Of a stretch of DNA of 11,050 bases, positions 1-11,050 are shown piece after piece. Position 1 is the stretch's first letter, and each line of letters begins with the position of its first letter. The stretch lies in the NCBI GenBank assembly GCA_006226265.1, contig SBHH01000089.1:1-11050 (forward strand), given 5' to 3'. This DNA is from Alphaproteobacteria bacterium. GTDB taxonomy: Bacteria; Pseudomonadota; Alphaproteobacteria; Sneathiellales; Sneathiellaceae. A program made the translations under genes and the position numbers. The notes under the pieces are model-generated. The model saw only the letters and a program-made list of their open reading frames with translations, was not told the DNA's origin and did no database searches.

Positions 1-521
1 GTATGGGAGCCGATCAGCTTGGCAATCACCTTGCCGTGCCCGACGAGGAAGGCGGCTGCGCCATCGCCCGTGGTGAATTCAAGCGGGCTTGCCGCTTTGG
101 TCTCGCGTTTCTCTGCTGTCGTATAGAGGATCGGATCGCCGCCCGCTTGCGCAACCTGCAGGGCAACCGCAAGGCCCGCGCTGCCCGCGCGCTGAGAGGA
201 GCTGAAATCGAGGGTCTGAAGACCGGATTTCAGATTGAGCGCATCGGCGACAATGCCAGCATTCTGCCGGTCGAGAAACGGGAAGGTGGTGGAGGCCATG
301 TAAACAGCCGACAGGGCATTCCGGTCATAATCGCCAAGGCAGTCGCGTGCCGCCTCGACCGCCATGGTCACGCTGTCCTCATCCCAGTTCGCCATCGACC
401 GTTCGCCCTTGGCGAGGCCGCCGAGGCCGGGGTTGAACCAGCTATGTGCCCTGGCAATTTCACTTCGCTGCAATCGGCTTTGGGGGATATATCCGCCATA
501 GGCCAATATTCCTACGTCCAT
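1..521 (-). CDS. HMG-CoA synthase / ketoacyl-synthase-III-like protein (thiolase fold), 5' part only
   Basis: The gene starts at ATG 521 and runs off the left edge after 173 codons. An AAGGAG ribosome site (plus-strand 531-536) lies about 9 nt before the start. The N-terminus (MDVGILAYGGYIPQ) and the FTTGDGAAAFLVG stretch (residues 149-161) are typical of the first half of the HMG-CoA synthase/KAS III thiolase superfamily, which condenses or cleaves acyl-CoA substrates. The element that should carry the nucleophilic Cys reads RAGSAGLAVAL (111-121), which puts Ser114 at the Cys position. The region that carries the catalytic Glu in HMG-CoA synthase reads ASTT (77-80), without Glu. It is therefore unlikely to be an ordinary HMG-CoA synthase. 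It may belong to the thiolase-like proteins that work with OB-fold/DUF35 partners. It is divergent from the carboxylase operon, and a role in the same acyl-CoA pathway is inferred. The C-terminal half is not visible. Confidence 0.72.
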   Translation of the reverse strand, partial: MDVGILAYGGYIPQSRLQRSEIARAHSWFNPGLGGLAKGERSMANWDEDSVTMAVEAARDCLGDYDRNALSAVYMASTTFPFLDRQNAGIVADALNLKSGLQTLDFSSSQRAGSAGLAVALQVAQAGGDPILYTTAEKRETKAASPLEFTTGDGAAAFLVGHGKVIAKLIGSH

Positions 522-755: not shown

Positions 756-784
756 TTGAAACATTCATTCATGAATGATAGTGT
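756..784 (+). promoter_or_regulatory. Putative promoter of the carboxylase operon
   Basis: TTGAAA (756-761) and TAGTGT (779-784) are spaced by 17 bp, and the palindromic operator fills the spacer. The -10 is weak on its own. However, the same operator-to--10 arrangement (ATGAATG, one base, TAGTRT) recurs at the right edge of the window before the dehydrogenase operon, which supports it. A repressor bound here would block RNA polymerase. The inferred start near 790 gives a leader of about 175 nt. Confidence 0.5.
763..776. promoter_or_regulatory. Palindromic operator ATTCAT-TC-ATGAAT (copy 1)
   Basis: The half-sites ATTCAT and ATGAAT flank a 2-bp centre. An overlapping, slightly shifted 14-bp perfect palindrome (TCATTCATGAATGA, 765-778) shares the same bases. 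It sits between the -35 and -10 of the carboxylase operon promoter. A copy differing in one of 14 bases lies at 11037-11050, at the same distance (9.5 bp from centre to -10) from the other operon's -10. Size and symmetry suit a dimeric repressor such as a TetR-family acyl-CoA-responsive regulator. The regulator itself is not in the window and its family is a guess. Confidence 0.65.
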
Positions 785-953
785 ATTTTGGAAGACAAAT
801 GCAATCCGTTTTTCGTCCGTCCGGAATTAGGGGGAGGGAAGCGGAAATCCCGGCCGGGCAGGAAAAGGGAAAAGCCAATTCCGCGCGAATTTGACTTTTT
901 TCCTAAACCACCGCTTCTGGCCATGGTATCGTATAAGAAAAACAAGAATGTGC

Positions 954-2631: not shown

Positions 2632-4626
2632 ATGAGAAAATTCAACAGCATACTGGTCGCTAACCGGGGCGAGATCGCGGTCCGGGTCATGCGGACGGCG
2701 AAAAGCCTTGGATACCGGACGGTTGCCGTCTATTCGGAGGCCGATGCCGGTGCGCCGCATGTCGCCATGGCGGATGAGGCGGTTTTGATCGGCCCAGCGC
2801 CGGTCGGGCAATCCTATCTTGATATGACGCGGATATTGAAGGCAGCCGAGGAAACGGGGGCCGAGGCCATCCATCCGGGATATGGTTTCCTCTCGGAAAA
2901 CGCGGAATTTGCCCGTGCTTGCGAGAAAGCGGGCCTCGTCTTTATCGGTCCGACCAGCGAGGCGATTGACCTCATGGGCAACAAGGCGGCGGCCAAACGC
3001 CGCATGATCGAGGCGGGCGTCCCTTGCGTTCCAGGCTATGAGGACAAGGACCAGTCCGATGAGGCTTTTATCTCGGCGTCGGAAAAAATCGGCTTTCCGA
3101 TCATGGTGAAGGCCGCGGCGGGCGGCGGCGGGCGCGGCATGCGCCTTGTCCATGCGGCGAAGGATTTGCCTGCGGCGCTTTCCTCTGCAAAGTCAGAGGC
3201 GCTGAATGCCTTTGGCTCGGATGAGTTGATCCTCGAAAAGGCGATTATCGAGCCTCGCCATGTCGAGCTGCAGGTTTTTGCGGACAGCCATGGCAATGTC
3301 ATTCATCTGGGCGAGCGGGACTGTTCCGTCCAGCGGCGGCATCAGAAGGTGGTGGAAGAGGCCCCCTGTCCCGTGATGACGGAAGAGCTTCGGGGAAAAA
3401 TGGGTGCGGCGGCGATCGAGGCCGCGCGCAGTATCGGCTATCGCGGGGCGGGCACGGTCGAATTCCTGCTCGACGCCGCGGGTAACTTCTATTTCCTTGA
3501 AATGAATACCCGCCTACAGGTGGAGCATCCGGTGACGGAATTGGTGACGGGGCTTGATCTCGTCGCACTCCAGCTAAAGATTGCCAATGACGATCCGCTT
3601 GGGATGACGCAGGAAGATGTGCGCCTTTCGGGCCATGCCATCGAAGTCCGGCTTTATGCGGAAGACCCGGCGCAGGATTTCCTTCCCTGTACGGGGCGGA
3701 TCACCAACTGGATCCCGGCGGAAGGAGACGATGTGCGCTTCGATGCCGGTATTGTCGAAGGGCAGGAAATCTCCCCCTTCTATGATCCGATGATTGCGAA
3801 AGTCATTGCCTATGGTGAAAGCCGGGAGGTGGCGCGCCACCGTCTGATCGAAGCCTTGAAGAGAACGGTGCTCTTCGGTCTCACCACCAACCGGGGCTTT
3901 TTGATTGATATTCTGGCCAAGGAGAAATTTGCCGATGGCGGTGCAACGACCGCCTTTATCGGGGAAGAGTTTACGGAGGGCGACCTTGCGGACGCTGTTC
4001 CCGATGCGCCCTCGATGGCCATGGCCGCCGTCCTTCAGTACCGGATCGAGCGGGACCGGACCCTTGCCAATACCGTGTTTGTGACCGAAGGGCTGCTTGA
4101 CTGGTCGAATGGCGGGGCGCTCATCACCCATTACGCCTATCAGGCGGGGGATGAAAAAGTGGATGTCGCCGTCTCCCCCCAGCGGGACGGCAGCTATCTT
4201 GTGGCGGCCGGGGAGGCGGAACTCTCCGTCGAGGTGCTCTCGCAAGGCGCGTCAACGGCGCTGATACGTGTCGATGGCCGTCGCCATCATGTCCAGTTCG
4301 CGGCGCCGTCCGACAGCCTTCTTGAATTTGCGGAAAGCGGTAAGGCACTCCGTTTCACCAATCTGATTGCGCTTGCGGCCTCCGCCGAAGCGGGACCGGC
4401 GGGTGGCCGCATTACCGCGCCGATGCATGGCACGATCATCGAGGTTTTTGTCTCCGAAGGCGATCAGGTGGAGCCGGGCACGCGCCTTGCGGTGCTGGAA
4501 GCCATGAAAATGCAGCATGATATCATCGCCGAAGTGCCAGGCGTGGTTCAGCTTGTCGCGGCGGTCAAGGCCGCGCAGGTCGCCGTAGATGCGCTGCTTT
4601 TCGAAATCGAGACGGCCGCAGAATAA
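2632..4626 (+). CDS. Acyl-CoA carboxylase alpha subunit: biotin carboxylase plus biotin carrier domain (AtuF/MccA-like)
   Basis: This 664-residue protein makes carboxybiotin from bicarbonate and ATP and presents it to the beta subunit encoded upstream. It opens with the biotin carboxylase N-domain (SILVANRGEIAVRVMRTA, 6-23). The ATP-grasp glycine-rich loop is VKAAAGGGGRGM (159-170). RDCSVQRRHQK (229-239) and the catalytic segment EMNTRLQVEHPVTE (290-303) follow. A linker/BT-type region of about 200 residues leads to the C-terminal biotinyl domain with EAMKM (623-627), where Lys626 is the expected biotinylation site. Length and order match MCC/GCC alpha subunits; a free-standing acetyl-CoA carboxylase AccC lacks the carrier. 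An AGGA ribosome site lies 8 nt before the ATG, and the next gene follows after 23 nt. Biotin protein ligase must come from elsewhere. Substrate is set by the beta subunit. Confidence 0.92.
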   Translation: MRKFNSILVANRGEIAVRVMRTAKSLGYRTVAVYSEADAGAPHVAMADEAVLIGPAPVGQSYLDMTRILKAAEETGAEAIHPGYGFLSENAEFARACEKAGLVFIGPTSEAIDLMGNKAAAKRRMIEAGVPCVPGYEDKDQSDEAFISASEKIGFPIMVKAAAGGGGRGMRLVHAAKDLPAALSSAKSEALNAFGSDELILEKAIIEPRHVELQVFADSHGNVIHLGERDCSVQRRHQKVVEEAPCPVMTEELRGKMGAAAIEAARSIGYRGAGTVEFLLDAAGNFYFLEMNTRLQVEHPVTELVTGLDLVALQLKIANDDPLGMTQEDVRLSGHAIEVRLYAEDPAQDFLPCTGRITNWIPAEGDDVRFDAGIVEGQEISPFYDPMIAKVIAYGESREVARHRLIEALKRTVLFGLTTNRGFLIDILAKEKFADGGATTAFIGEEFTEGDLADAVPDAPSMAMAAVLQYRIERDRTLANTVFVTEGLLDWSNGGALITHYAYQAGDEKVDVAVSPQRDGSYLVAAGEAELSVEVLSQGASTALIRVDGRRHHVQFAAPSDSLLEFAESGKALRFTNLIALAASAEAGPAGGRITAPMHGTIIEVFVSEGDQVEPGTRLAVLEAMKMQHDIIAEVPGVVQLVAAVKAAQVAVDALLFEIETAAE

Positions 4627-4649: not shown

Positions 4650-5441
4650 ATGTTGAAGGAAGCCTATGATTTCCGGGATGAGAGCGAAGCGCTTTACAAC
4701 CTCGTGAAACCGCTCAATGCGGCGGATTATGATCGCAAGACCCTGTTCAACGACTGGACGATCAATGACGTGCTGCAGCATTTACATTTCTTCAACTATG
4801 CTGCCGATCTCACTCTGGTGGATGAGCCGGAATTTGTCCGTGTTTATGAGAAGCTTGTAAAGCTCCGCGAGAAATCCTCCTTCACCGAGGCGACGGATGT
4901 CCTGCTCGACGGGCTGAAAGGCCCCGAACTTCTTCAAACCTGGCATGATTATTATCATGAAATGGCGAACCGCTTTTATGAGGCCGATCCGAAGAAGCGC
5001 CTGAAATGGGCAGGCCCCAGCATGAGTGCGCGGTCCAGCATCTCCGCCCGGCTAATGGAAACCTGGGCCCATGCGCAGGAAATCTATGATCTTCTGGGCG
5101 TTCATCGCGAAAATCATGATCGTATCCGCAGCATCGCCATCATGGGCATGAATACCTTCGGATGGACTTTCCAGAATCGGGGGGAGGAAATTCCTTCGCC
5201 CGTCCCGCATGTGCGTCTCACCGCACCCTCCGGCGAAATCTGGGAATGGAATGTGGAGAACGAAACCGACCGGATCGAAGGCGCGGCGGAAGGCTTCTGC
5301 CAGGTCGTGACCCAGACCCGGAATGTAAAGGATACGGATTTGAAAGTCTCCGGTCCGATCGCCACCCGCTGGATGGAGGTCGCGCAATGCTTTGCGGGAC
5401 CTGCCCGCCTGCCGCCCGCCCCCGGAACCCGCCACGCCTGA
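4650..5441 (+). CDS. TIGR03084-family protein (DinB / mycothiol-dependent maleylpyruvate-isomerase-like fold)
   Basis: This 263-residue protein begins with a DinB-like four-helix N-terminal domain (WTINDVLQHLHFFN, 36-49) and contains RLMETWAHAQEIYDLLG (134-150). The likely metal triad is His44, Glu137 and His141. The Glu-x3-His spacing and the distance to the first His match, from memory, the zinc ligands of the Corynebacterium maleylpyruvate isomerase. The C-terminal part holds the TIGR03084 features: WTFQNRGEE (about 172-180), a LTAPSGEIWEW strand, an FCQVVTQ helix and a final VAQCFAGP. No signal peptide or membrane segment is seen. The reaction is unknown. A metal-dependent thiol or CoA-intermediate chemistry, or a binding role for the carboxylase pathway, is inferred only from its place between the carboxylase and FadH genes. 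A GAAGGG ribosome site precedes ATG 4650, and the next gene starts 12 nt after its stop. Confidence 0.78.
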   Translation: MLKEAYDFRDESEALYNLVKPLNAADYDRKTLFNDWTINDVLQHLHFFNYAADLTLVDEPEFVRVYEKLVKLREKSSFTEATDVLLDGLKGPELLQTWHDYYHEMANRFYEADPKKRLKWAGPSMSARSSISARLMETWAHAQEIYDLLGVHRENHDRIRSIAIMGMNTFGWTFQNRGEEIPSPVPHVRLTAPSGEIWEWNVENETDRIEGAAEGFCQVVTQTRNVKDTDLKVSGPIATRWMEVAQCFAGPARLPPAPGTRHA

Positions 5442-8566
<3,125 letters not shown>

Positions 8567-8570
8567 GCGT

Positions 8571-9782
8571 TTATTCCTTCTCGGCCCGAGGCTCACGCGG
8601 CATGCCGAGACCACGCTCGGAAATGATGTTCTTCTGTATTTGCGCCGTCCCACCGCCAATGATGAGGCCGAGATCATACATGTAAAGCTGCTGCCAGAAA
8701 TCATCGCGCGCGGCATCGGGAATGCCTTCGTAAAGGATACCGGCCTCCCCCATGATATCGATGGCGAGCGCATCGAGCTGGTGATTTAACTCGCAGCCGA
8801 TCAGTTTGCAGATCATATCGCCAAGCCCGGACCCGAGGCCGTCTCCGGCCCGGGTCATCAGCCGCATTTCATGAAGCCGCATGGACTGAACCCGTGCCTG
8901 CAAGCGGATGAAACGGTCGCGGAAGACGGGGCTCTTCGAGACGGGTTCGCCGTCCACCCGTTCCTCTTTCAGGAGGCGGGCGATCTTGTTCAGCCGGTCC
9001 TGCGACTGGGTGGCATTGGAGAGCATGCCGCGTTCATGCTTCAACGTGCTGTTGGCGACCTTCCATCCATTACCGCGCCCGCCAACGACGCAGGATTTCG
9101 GAACCCTGACATCGGTGAAGAAGACTTCGTTGAAGGAGGGATGGCCGGTCATGGTCTGAAGGGGACGGATTGCGATTCCCGGGGTATCCATCGGAAAGAT
9201 CAAATAGCTGATTCCCTGATATTTCGACGCCTCCGGCTCCGTCCGGACAAGACAGAAGATCATCTTCGCGATATGAGCGGAGGAGGTCCATATTTTCGAT
9301 CCATTGATGATGAAATTCTCCCCGTCCTCGTCGGCACGGGTCTGCAGGCTCGCAAGGTCGGACCCCGAATTAGGTTCTGAATAGCCCTGGCACCAGAATA
9401 TGTCGCCACGGATGGTGGGGGCGATCCATTCCTGCTTTTGAGCTTCTGTCCCATGCTCCAGCAGGGTCGGCACCAGCATAGAAATTCCCTGATTGAGAAG
9501 GGTCTGCGGCAGGCCTGCGTTGAAAAATTCTTCGGCAATGATGCGGTTTTTGAGAATATCCTCCGATGCGCCGAAGCCGCCATATTCCTTCGGGATAGTG
9601 CGGCAGGCATAGCCTTGCTCGACCAGCAGGCGTTGCCAGTTCCGTACCGCTTCGGAATAGCGGCGCGGCTGCATTCGATAGGACTGCGTTGTATCCTCCG
9701 GCGCTTCATCCTTGTGACCGGCAATAAACTGCCGGACTTCTTCACGGAATGCCCGGTGTTCCGCGCGGTCGGTCAAATCCAT
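8571..9782 (-). CDS. Acyl-CoA dehydrogenase, catalytic subunit of a likely heteromeric enzyme
   Basis: This 403-residue flavoprotein of acyl-CoA dehydrogenase type removes the alpha,beta hydrogens of an acyl-CoA and passes electrons to ETF. The ATG at 9782 has a GGGAGG ribosome site 7 nt upstream, and the gene starts 22 nt after the previous stop. The N-terminal helical domain contains YGGFGAS (67-73). The FAD/substrate signature QGYSEPNSGSDLASLQT lies at 132-148. NGSKIWTSSAH (160-170) is the usual barrel strand. The helix-G segment LKHERGML (247-254) supplies a Glu (250) at the catalytic position used by isovaleryl-CoA-type and many heteromeric enzymes. The C-terminal alternative site reads IIGGGTAQIQ (374-383), with Gly for Glu. 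The flexible insertion around 270-290 is typical of the larger FadE partner. Pairing with the downstream 360-residue protein is inferred from adjacency and complementary active sites. Confidence 0.88.
   Translation of the reverse strand: MDLTDRAEHRAFREEVRQFIAGHKDEAPEDTTQSYRMQPRRYSEAVRNWQRLLVEQGYACRTIPKEYGGFGASEDILKNRIIAEEFFNAGLPQTLLNQGISMLVPTLLEHGTEAQKQEWIAPTIRGDIFWCQGYSEPNSGSDLASLQTRADEDGENFIINGSKIWTSSAHIAKMIFCLVRTEPEASKYQGISYLIFPMDTPGIAIRPLQTMTGHPSFNEVFFTDVRVPKSCVVGGRGNGWKVANSTLKHERGMLSNATQSQDRLNKIARLLKEERVDGEPVSKSPVFRDRFIRLQARVQSMRLHEMRLMTRAGDGLGSGLGDMICKLIGCELNHQLDALAIDIMGEAGILYEGIPDAARDDFWQQLYMYDLGLIIGGGTAQIQKNIISERGLGMPREPRAEKE
8575..8580 (-). promoter_or_regulatory. Shine-Dalgarno GAAGGA that decides the start of the 360-residue dehydrogenase
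   Basis: GAAGGA on the minus strand lies 8 nt before ATG 8566 and inside the last codons of the preceding dehydrogenase gene. The reading frame is open upstream to 8773, so the site is what fixes the start at MYFGLSEEQ. The arrangement suggests coupled translation of the two subunits. Confidence 0.65.
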
Positions 9783-9804: not shown

Positions 9805-10950
9805 TCAGTCCGGGGAAATACCCATAAGCTTGGTGATGACTTTCAGCATGATCTCGTCCGCGCCGCCGCCGATGGATGTGAGGCGGAAGTCGCGGAACTT
9901 GCGGGAGATGGAAGATTCCCACATATAGCCCTGGCCGCCCCAATATTGCAGGCAGCTGTCCATCACTTCGCGTTGCAAGCGTCCGACTTTAAGTTTCGCC
10001 ATGGAGGCGAGCTTGGTCACATCCTCGCCGGAGACATAGCGCTCCACCGCATGATAGGTGAGGGCGCGAAGGGCCTCCACTTCCGTCTGCAGCTCGGCAA
10101 GCCGGTAATTGACGACCTGATTGTCGAGGATGGCCTTGCCGAAGGCTTTCCGCTCCCGGGTATAGTCAATTGTCTCGTTGATCGCCTCTTCCATGACGCG
10201 GGGGCCGCGCGCGGCGGCGAACAGGCGTTCCTCCTGAAACTGTTGCATCTGATAGATGAAGCCGCGCCCTTCCTCGCCGATGCGGTTGCGCTGCGGCACC
10301 CGGACGTCATCGAAGAAAAGCTGCGCGGTGTCGGAGGACATCATGCCGATCTTGCGAAGCTTGTGCTTGGTGATGCCGGGGCTGTCCATGGGCACGATGA
10401 TGAGCGACTTGTTCTTATGCACGGGACCGTCGCCGGTATTACAAAGAAGGCAGACCCAGTCCGCCTGCAGCGCGTTGGTGATATACATCTTGGAGCCGTT
10501 GATAATGTAGTCATCGCCGTCTTTTCGCGCGGTTGTCTTAAGGTTTGCAACGTCCGATCCGGCTGCGGCCTCCGTCACGCCGACGCAGCCGACCATTTCC
10601 CCCTGAATGGCGGGGGCGAGATAGGTCTGGCGCAATTCGTCCGAGCCATGGCGGGCGAGGGCGGGGGTGGACATATTGGTCTGTACGCCGATGGCCATCG
10701 CAACACCGCCGCAGGCGATATAGCCAAGCGCCTCCGACGCCACGGCCTCATAGGAATAGTCAAGGCCGCTCCCGCCATATTCTTCCGGCTTGCTGATGCC
10801 AAGGAAGCCCATCGCGCCCATTTTCTTGAACAGCTCATGGGCAGGAAACTGCTCCTTTTCCTCCCATTCATCGACGTAAGGATTGATCTCGCTTTCGATG
10901 AATTTCTTCAGGCTTTCGGTCAGTTCCCGATGTTCCTGGGTGAATTGCAT
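9805..10950 (-). CDS. atuD: Acyl-CoA dehydrogenase, AtuD (citronellyl-CoA dehydrogenase)-like
   Basis: This 381-residue protein is a complete acyl-CoA dehydrogenase. From memory of the Pseudomonas AtuD protein the resemblance is close along the chain: MQFTQEHRELTESLKKFI at the start, INPYVDEWE, AIGVQT (86-91), DTAQLFFDDVRVPQRNRIGE (207-226) and QFQEERLFAAA (237-247). AtuD oxidises citronellyl-CoA to geranyl-CoA, the substrate of geranyl-CoA carboxylase; a related 3-methyl-branched substrate is expected here. The signature CVGVTEAAAGSD lies at 122-133. The catalytic Glu is probably Glu241 (EERLF, isovaleryl-CoA-type position), because the C-terminal site reads SIGGGADEI (359-367). The start at 10950 is preceded by an AAGGTGG site, and the leader from the inferred promoter is about 70 nt. 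It is the first gene of a three-dehydrogenase operon. An isovaleryl-CoA dehydrogenase role is the main alternative. Confidence 0.8.
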   Translation of the reverse strand: MQFTQEHRELTESLKKFIESEINPYVDEWEEKEQFPAHELFKKMGAMGFLGISKPEEYGGSGLDYSYEAVASEALGYIACGGVAMAIGVQTNMSTPALARHGSDELRQTYLAPAIQGEMVGCVGVTEAAAGSDVANLKTTARKDGDDYIINGSKMYITNALQADWVCLLCNTGDGPVHKNKSLIIVPMDSPGITKHKLRKIGMMSSDTAQLFFDDVRVPQRNRIGEEGRGFIYQMQQFQEERLFAAARGPRVMEEAINETIDYTRERKAFGKAILDNQVVNYRLAELQTEVEALRALTYHAVERYVSGEDVTKLASMAKLKVGRLQREVMDSCLQYWGGQGYMWESSISRKFRDFRLTSIGGGADEIMLKVITKLMGISPD

Positions 10951-10992: not shown

Positions 10993-11019
10993 CGGTCCCA
11001 TTAAAGGGATTGTTTTTTT
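10993..11019 (+). terminator. Terminator-like hairpin with T-run, pointing out of the dehydrogenase leader
   Basis: On the plus strand CGGTCCC (10993-10999) and GGGATTG (11006-11012) can pair with two G-U wobbles around an ATTAAA loop. Seven T (11013-11019) follow. It would act only on transcripts running antisense to the dehydrogenase operon towards the right. On the sense strand the same bases lie in the 5' leader and could form a weak hairpin. The stem is short and it may be chance. Confidence 0.25.
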
Positions 11020-11036: not shown

Positions 11037-11050
11037 ATTCATGCATGAAT
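11037..11050. promoter_or_regulatory. Palindromic operator ATTCAT-GC-ATGAAT (copy 2)
   Basis: This is a perfect 14-bp palindrome ending on the last base of the window. It differs from copy 1 (763-776) in a single base of the 2-bp centre. It directly precedes the -10 of the dehydrogenase operon, as copy 1 precedes that of the carboxylase operon. Common control of both operons by one dimeric repressor is the natural reading. The gene beyond the edge could be divergently controlled by the same site. Confidence 0.65.

Follow-up and report, generated by a model that had tools for sequence, protein, structure and literature searches.

A putative palindromic operator in the promoter spacers of acyl-CoA catabolism genes in Sneathiella and its candidate TetR-family regulator

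Described regulators and the gene set at this locus

The closest described systems are AtuR with its atu cluster in Pseudomonas aeruginosa and P. citronellolis, and RdmA in P. nitroreducens. A TetR gene there lies divergent from its target operon and the operator lies by the -10 box, an arrangement that recurs at the locus analyzed here. AtuR binds two 13-bp repeats, AGCAAGCGCTTGG and CCAAGCGCTTGCT, about 40 bp apart (PMC9973270). Our locus is like the atu cluster in linking AtuA to a geranyl-CoA-carboxylase-like enzyme; unlike AtuR with its two repeats, it has a single site that fills the promoter spacer. The AtuR repeat had no match at up to two mismatches in the window (the whole stretch of DNA analyzed, 11,050 bp), and 16 other loci yielded five scattered two-mismatch matches in four loci, none of them about 40 bp apart. 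With that repeat absent, the system cannot be filed as AtuR, the two being compared by operator and gene arrangement. By analogy, the site would best be read as belonging to a local repressor that resembles AtuR and has an operator of its own.

Other regulators of acyl-CoA genes share some of these features. Bacillus FadR also has a TetR fold, and its operator arms read TGAATGA-N4-TCATTCA. The same arm letters, TCATTCA and TGAATGA, are found here in an order reversed from that of FadR, and the FadR order had no match in the window at up to three mismatches. The linked TetR protein described below was rejected as a Bacillus FadR (30.7 bits against an NCBIfam FadR cut-off of 200), and the caution of the original prediction against equating the two was well placed. 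Control of acyl-CoA catabolism is likewise shared with the FadP, PsrA and LiuQ (TetR) and LiuR (MerR) regulons of Proteobacteria; among the genomes covered by PMC5343134, FadP and LiuQ occur only in betaproteobacteria. The TetR here reaches no NCBIfam equivalog cut-off.

The window is a complete contig (C105) of a metagenome-assembled genome (MAG) that totals 2.58 Mb over 370 contigs and is 70% complete. Its plus strand carries a carboxylase operon that consists of an acyl-CoA carboxylase carboxyltransferase subunit (966-2588), a biotin carboxylase and biotin carrier subunit (2632-4626), a TIGR03084 family protein (4650-5441; 297.3 bits against a cut-off of 247.95) and a FadH/Old-yellow-enzyme-type oxidoreductase (5454-7487; assigned by Pfam domains, with NCBIfam equivalogs below cut-off). 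An incomplete HMG-CoA-synthase-like gene (3-521, minus strand) is divergent from it. The second operon, on the minus strand, begins with acyl-CoA dehydrogenase 1 (9805-10950) and continues with dehydrogenases 2 (8571-9782) and 3 (7484-8566). The best solved relative of the carboxyltransferase is the geranyl-CoA carboxylase beta subunit (5ikl), to which it scores 569 bits, vs. 468 to methylcrotonyl-CoA carboxylase. Taken with AtuA, an enoyl-CoA hydratase, the three acyl-CoA dehydrogenases and the FadH/OYE-type reductase, the carboxylase suggests breakdown of branched or isoprenoid acyl-CoAs. The gene set resembles that for acyclic-terpene breakdown, and its substrate is perhaps a branched isoprenoid acid.

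Palindromes built into promoters

Two palindromes, ATTCATTCATGAAT at 763-776 and ATTCATGCATGAAT at 11037-11050, differ at one of 14 bases and share the form ATTCAT-N2-ATGAAT, with 12 of 14 positions self-complementary in the first and all 14 in the second. Their centers (769.5 and 11043.5) each lie 9.5 bp from a -10 hexamer, TAGTGT at 779-784 on the plus strand and TAGTAT at 11034-11029 on the minus strand, and both junctions keep ATGAATG-N-TAGT, all as the original prediction described. That no third copy occurs in the window was also borne out: a scan allowing three mismatches gave only the two sites and a four-base-shifted overlap of site 1, six strand-wise matches in total. Six matches were reached in 20 of 200 shuffles, so the window scan is not decisive by itself. 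The base composition of the window predicts 4e-5 perfect matches over its own length and 0.01 over 2.58 Mb; the whole MAG has exactly two perfect places, which are sites 1 and 2. Its two one-mismatch places, one where an oligopeptidase-like ORF starts (C78) and one before a racemase-like ORF (C96; both ORFs recognized by eye), were dropped as operators because a promoter is absent.

In relatives from the genus Sneathiella, the operator sequence is ACATTCATNNATGAATGT, and it takes up the 17-bp spacer of a promoter of the form TTGNNA-N17-TANTNT. At site 1, the distal promoter of the carboxylase operon consists of a -35 hexamer TTGAAA (756-761), the spacer (762-778) and the TAGTGT hexamer; operator 1, ACATTCATTCATGAATGA, spans 761-778 on the plus strand around the 763-776 core. 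Because the window is a whole contig, site 2, on the minus strand, forms its last 14 bases and the -35 side is missing; in relatives that side has TTGTAA or TTGAAA. Judged from sequence, a sigma-70-like promoter here effectively has the palindrome as its spacer. That the contig stops exactly on the perfect palindrome at 11037-11050 may reflect a palindrome-caused assembly break or chance. Operator 1 also contains a shifted perfect 14-bp palindrome, TCATTCATGAATGA at 765-778, which is likewise found in other sites reading CATTCATTCATGAATGA.

We scanned 24 Sneathiella genomes for ACATTCATNNATGAATGT with up to two mismatches and obtained 43 places, while the same pattern read backwards gave eight places in seven genomes. 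Each place was scored out of 12 for the two hexamers that flank the 17-bp spacer, TTGNNA immediately on its 5' side and TANTNT immediately on its 3' side. Twenty-four places scored 12/12, TTGNNA being present in all of them, and the other 19 scored at most 8/12. All 14 perfect places were promoter-embedded, as were nine of 14 with one mismatch and one of 15 with two, a distribution that speaks against the random coding matches that had been raised as a way for the motif to fail. Class-wide, a scan of 385 genomes for AACATTCATNNATGAATGNTAGT with up to two mismatches returned matches in seven, five Sneathiella and two of one other genus, against two genomes for the read-backwards control. A recurrent sub-motif (ACATTCATNNATGATNGT and similar), found at eight places in eight genomes within coding sequence that looks LysR-like by eye, was never promoter-embedded; it was therefore rejected as an operator and taken as coding conservation.

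Embedded sites number one to four per genome, with one at the TetR locus wherever that locus was retrieved. Extra operator promoters stand before an SDR gene (in G022) and an acyl-CoA dehydrogenase gene (in G022 and G020) at L091 5001, L092 5001 and L108 5001; we read these sequences as lineage-specific regulon growth.

Conservation was strongest on the dehydrogenase side. Orthologs of dehydrogenase 1 (87-94% identical; next best protein 68%) are present in 12 of the 23 other Sneathiella genomes, and the operator lies upstream in every one, at 0-1 mismatches from ACATTCATNNATGAATGT. Eight of these loci were examined from the ortholog side; the remaining four (L100, L101, L107, L114) were first found via the motif scan, and their orthology was confirmed independently of the motif. 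At these sites the conserved stretch extends to TTTGTAACATTCATKCATGAATGTTAGTRT, with variable flanks. A 60% relative in another family (L056) had no operator upstream.

The linked TetR gene

A divergent TetR gene adjoins the site in L100, L107 and L114, and tblastn located TetR in the same position in the remaining dehydrogenase loci, so that a TetR-type gene with operator copies beside it, for which the original prediction advised looking, does exist. It stands divergent beside the dehydrogenase, with a readable helix, in 11 of 12 genomes; in the 12th (G010, L101) it is split over contigs. The L100 ortholog contains the TetR_N DNA-binding domain (PF00440, 42.7 bits vs. 24) and has the all-helical TetR fold, and fold searches return only that general fold. 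Its best 50 database proteins bear general TetR/AcrR names, "hypothetical" or none, and a plasmid search gave one remote Rhizobium match (31.6%). Divergent TetR pairs less than 200 bp apart usually comprise a repressor and its target, according to the "200 bp rule" (PMC3511530). The distances of 97-144 bp between TetR and dehydrogenase starts (longest ORFs in L044, L100, L107 and L114) fit this rule, which was derived in Streptomyces; for the window genome, divergence within 200 bp is placed by synteny only.

Close TetR copies, one each, were found in 20 of 24 genus genomes, with best E values between 7e-130 and 6e-40; three of these genomes have a further remote TetR (E near 1e-16). The exceptions are the window genome (G000), which has a C-terminal fragment, and G006, G011 and G016 (66, 99 and 56% complete), which have neither TetR nor an embedded site. 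TetR, whole or as a fragment, and an embedded site are thus both present in 21 genomes and both missing from three (Fisher 5e-4, relatedness ignored). The proteins fall into two types. Type a (63-100% identical to L100) adjoins the dehydrogenase in 12 genomes, and type b (36-46% identical) occurs in eight, several times beside MaoC-like and acyl-CoA dehydrogenase genes, with a hydrolase in L089 and transporter-like ORFs in L098 (both by eye).

TetR ORFs with an RGA[I/V]QYHF helix occur in 24 of 28 loci, and all 24 have the site upstream, with 0-1 mismatches in 21, two in two and three in one. Many of the 28 loci were reached via the motif; those found via TetR alone (L134, L150-L153, L155) also have the site. 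The other four comprise the L101 fragment and three distant TetRs. These three and three more remote TetRs of the genus have other helices, and none of the six has an upstream site at up to two mismatches. Weak matches that keep the left half ACATTCA lie upstream of a distant TetR at L173 1446 (three mismatches) and L174 50 (four); these are perhaps an older operator form, or chance, and because of them the helix-site contrast is not absolute. The same divergent TetR/dehydrogenase order is seen in the MAG loci L150-L153 (TetRs 47-54% identical), two of whose genomes are placed in another family (G215, G307), and L151 has an operator promoter. In L153 (4934) the longest ORFs called for TetR and the dehydrogenase overlap, the operator lying inside, and the true starts of both are probably internal.

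AtuA (PF07287) is found in 22 of 24 genus genomes and lies about 0.9 kb behind TetR in all 12 type-a genomes. In the window MAG, contig C314 (4,040 bp) carries AtuA, then an enoyl-CoA-hydratase-like ORF and then, at the contig end, the C-terminus of a TetR. This fragment comprises the last 48 residues (65% identical to L100, E 4e-17), with the DNA-binding part absent. Synteny with L044 and L100 puts about 540 bp between the end of C314 and the end of C105 at operator 2, and we infer that the two are neighboring contigs.

Conserved elements also follow the operator promoters. A CAATCC element lies 16 bp (17 in one) past the -10 in all 15 type-a dehydrogenase and carboxylase promoters, including both in the window (802-807, plus strand, 17 bp past; 11007-11012, minus strand, 16 bp past), and would be near the transcript 5' end. 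None of the 15 other operator promoters examined (L151 left out) has it in the first 40 bp past the -10. Type-b loci (L083, L087, L089, L095, L098, L103, L105, L134, L155) share a conserved stretch in the roughly 75 bp that follow the operator promoter, AAGGGGGAAC..GGTC..GTGTG..AAACCCCC, with a mean column identity of 80%. In five of these nine (L083, L095, L103, L105, L134) the promoter faces a convergent MaoC gene instead of leading into an enzyme gene, a point against the switch proposed below, and the stretch is a candidate leader or small RNA. None of eight pairs was compensatory in a covariation analysis and two leader copies showed no folding advantage over shuffled sequences (z -0.04 and -1.39), leaving a structured RNA unsupported. 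An Rfam search of the window was negative up to E 1, and in the L095 leader it gave six weak matches, all under gathering score. A TCCC-loop-GGGA hairpin after the dehydrogenase promoter (z -2.14 in the window) is conserved neither in L048 nor in L107. We regard it as a speculative and rather improbable extension that Sneathiella and uncultured relatives hold an undescribed repressor lineage defined by an operator that is the spacer, with two TetR types that are mutually exclusive in the genomes searched, where the promoter in type-b loci would drive a leader or small RNA instead of enzyme operons and the type-a CAATCC would provide a second, transcript-level control.

The proposed switch and its reach

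Most likely, the palindromes are bound by a TetR-type repressor of genes for the breakdown of branched, perhaps terpene-like, acids. From the site, its promoter geometry, its TetR linkage and its conservation, all read from sequence, we infer DNA binding, repression, a ligand and a substrate as follows. The repressor gene would be divergent from the dehydrogenase operon and start just past the right end of the window. A repressor dimer on ACATTCATNNATGAATGT would sit between the -35 and -10 hexamers, exclude RNA polymerase and be freed by a ligand, probably one of the pathway's acyl-CoAs. Release would turn on the dehydrogenase operon together with the regulator's own TetR, enoyl-CoA hydratase and AtuA genes and, in the window genome, the distal promoter of the carboxylase operon. 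We consider it highly probable that both palindromes are operators of one such spacer-blocking, ligand-released TetR repressor, forming an AtuR-like local switch.

The less conserved half of this picture is the carboxylase side. The original prediction of one operator shared by both operons holds for the window genome and one other; conservation upstream of the orthologous operons, a check that it proposed, is complete for the dehydrogenase operon and poor for the carboxylase operon. Carboxyltransferase orthologs (77-89% identity) occur in 12 of the 23 other Sneathiella genomes, and only one of these, in G022, has the operator upstream (within 600 bp, up to two mismatches). Moreover, the stretch at about 892-945 (plus strand), between operator 1 and the carboxyltransferase gene, aligns with the proximal upstream region of relatives that lack operator 1 (ten sequences compared). 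It may be a second, proximal promoter, and repression at operator 1 need therefore not silence the operon. Both observations favor an alternative in which TetR governs its own divergent region only, operator 1 being a relic or minor and the carboxylase running mainly on the proximal promoter. Against this, the window and G022 copies each have one mismatch, the CAATCC element and full -35 and -10 hexamers. The gap that separates the operon from the divergent HMG-CoA-synthase-like gene is 444 bp in the window and 476 bp in G022, and 224-267 bp in eight other genomes, which are without the operator segment; the remaining three orthologs (L053-L055) also are without the site, in a different upstream setting. 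A concatenated tree rooted with L056 groups the eight short-gap genomes apart from the window genome and G022 (one node 0.74), which fits a single loss of the carboxylase operator. Further, L151 and L153 have carboxylase-like genes (by eye) behind a TetR gene and genes like those for the hydratase and AtuA, all on one strand (the AtuA of L151 identified by Pfam), an order suggesting that joint control may have come first. On balance we think it unlikely that the switch is confined to the TetR's own region.

Other regulators could in principle use a site of this kind. MerR-family sites sit in promoter spacers, and those spacers measure 19-20 bp. A MerR-type activator acting from inside the spacer, with the linked TetR incidental, would share the position of the site; the 17-bp spacer here and the constancy of TetR as the neighbor of the site both make it very improbable. 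A general fatty-acid regulator of the FadR, LiuR or PsrA type, encoded elsewhere, would suit targets that are acyl-CoA enzymes, and such regulators do occur in Proteobacteria. The small number of embedded sites per genome, one of them at each retrieved TetR locus, and the lack of embedded sites in the three TetR-less genomes leave this reading with little probability as well. As for a chance pair of palindromes, which the shuffled windows alone might have allowed, cross-genome conservation and promoter embedding already refute it, and we assign it a negligible probability. The earlier reading of the palindromes as operators is upheld, with sharing by both operons as its less conserved part; that reading had missed the -35 hexamer, the regulator, the contig end and the CAATCC element.

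In the open-access literature searched, outside which most subscription papers lie, the motif strings had no match in this role and matched only in staphylococcal papers; nothing pertinent was found that treats a TetR together with acyl-CoA dehydrogenase in Sneathiella. The type of switch is ordinary, the regulon is new, and a candidate regulator has been identified. For an AtuA-linked, geranyl-CoA-carboxylase-like set of genes in Alphaproteobacteria, the motif thereby becomes a regulator-operator pair open to testing, with a strict search pattern of TTGNNA, then ACATTCATNNATGAATGT overlapping the 17-bp spacer, then TANTNT. It also suggests a rewiring of the pathway among these bacteria, in which carboxylase-like genes stand behind the regulator in some relatives, have their own operator copy in two Sneathiella and have none in others.
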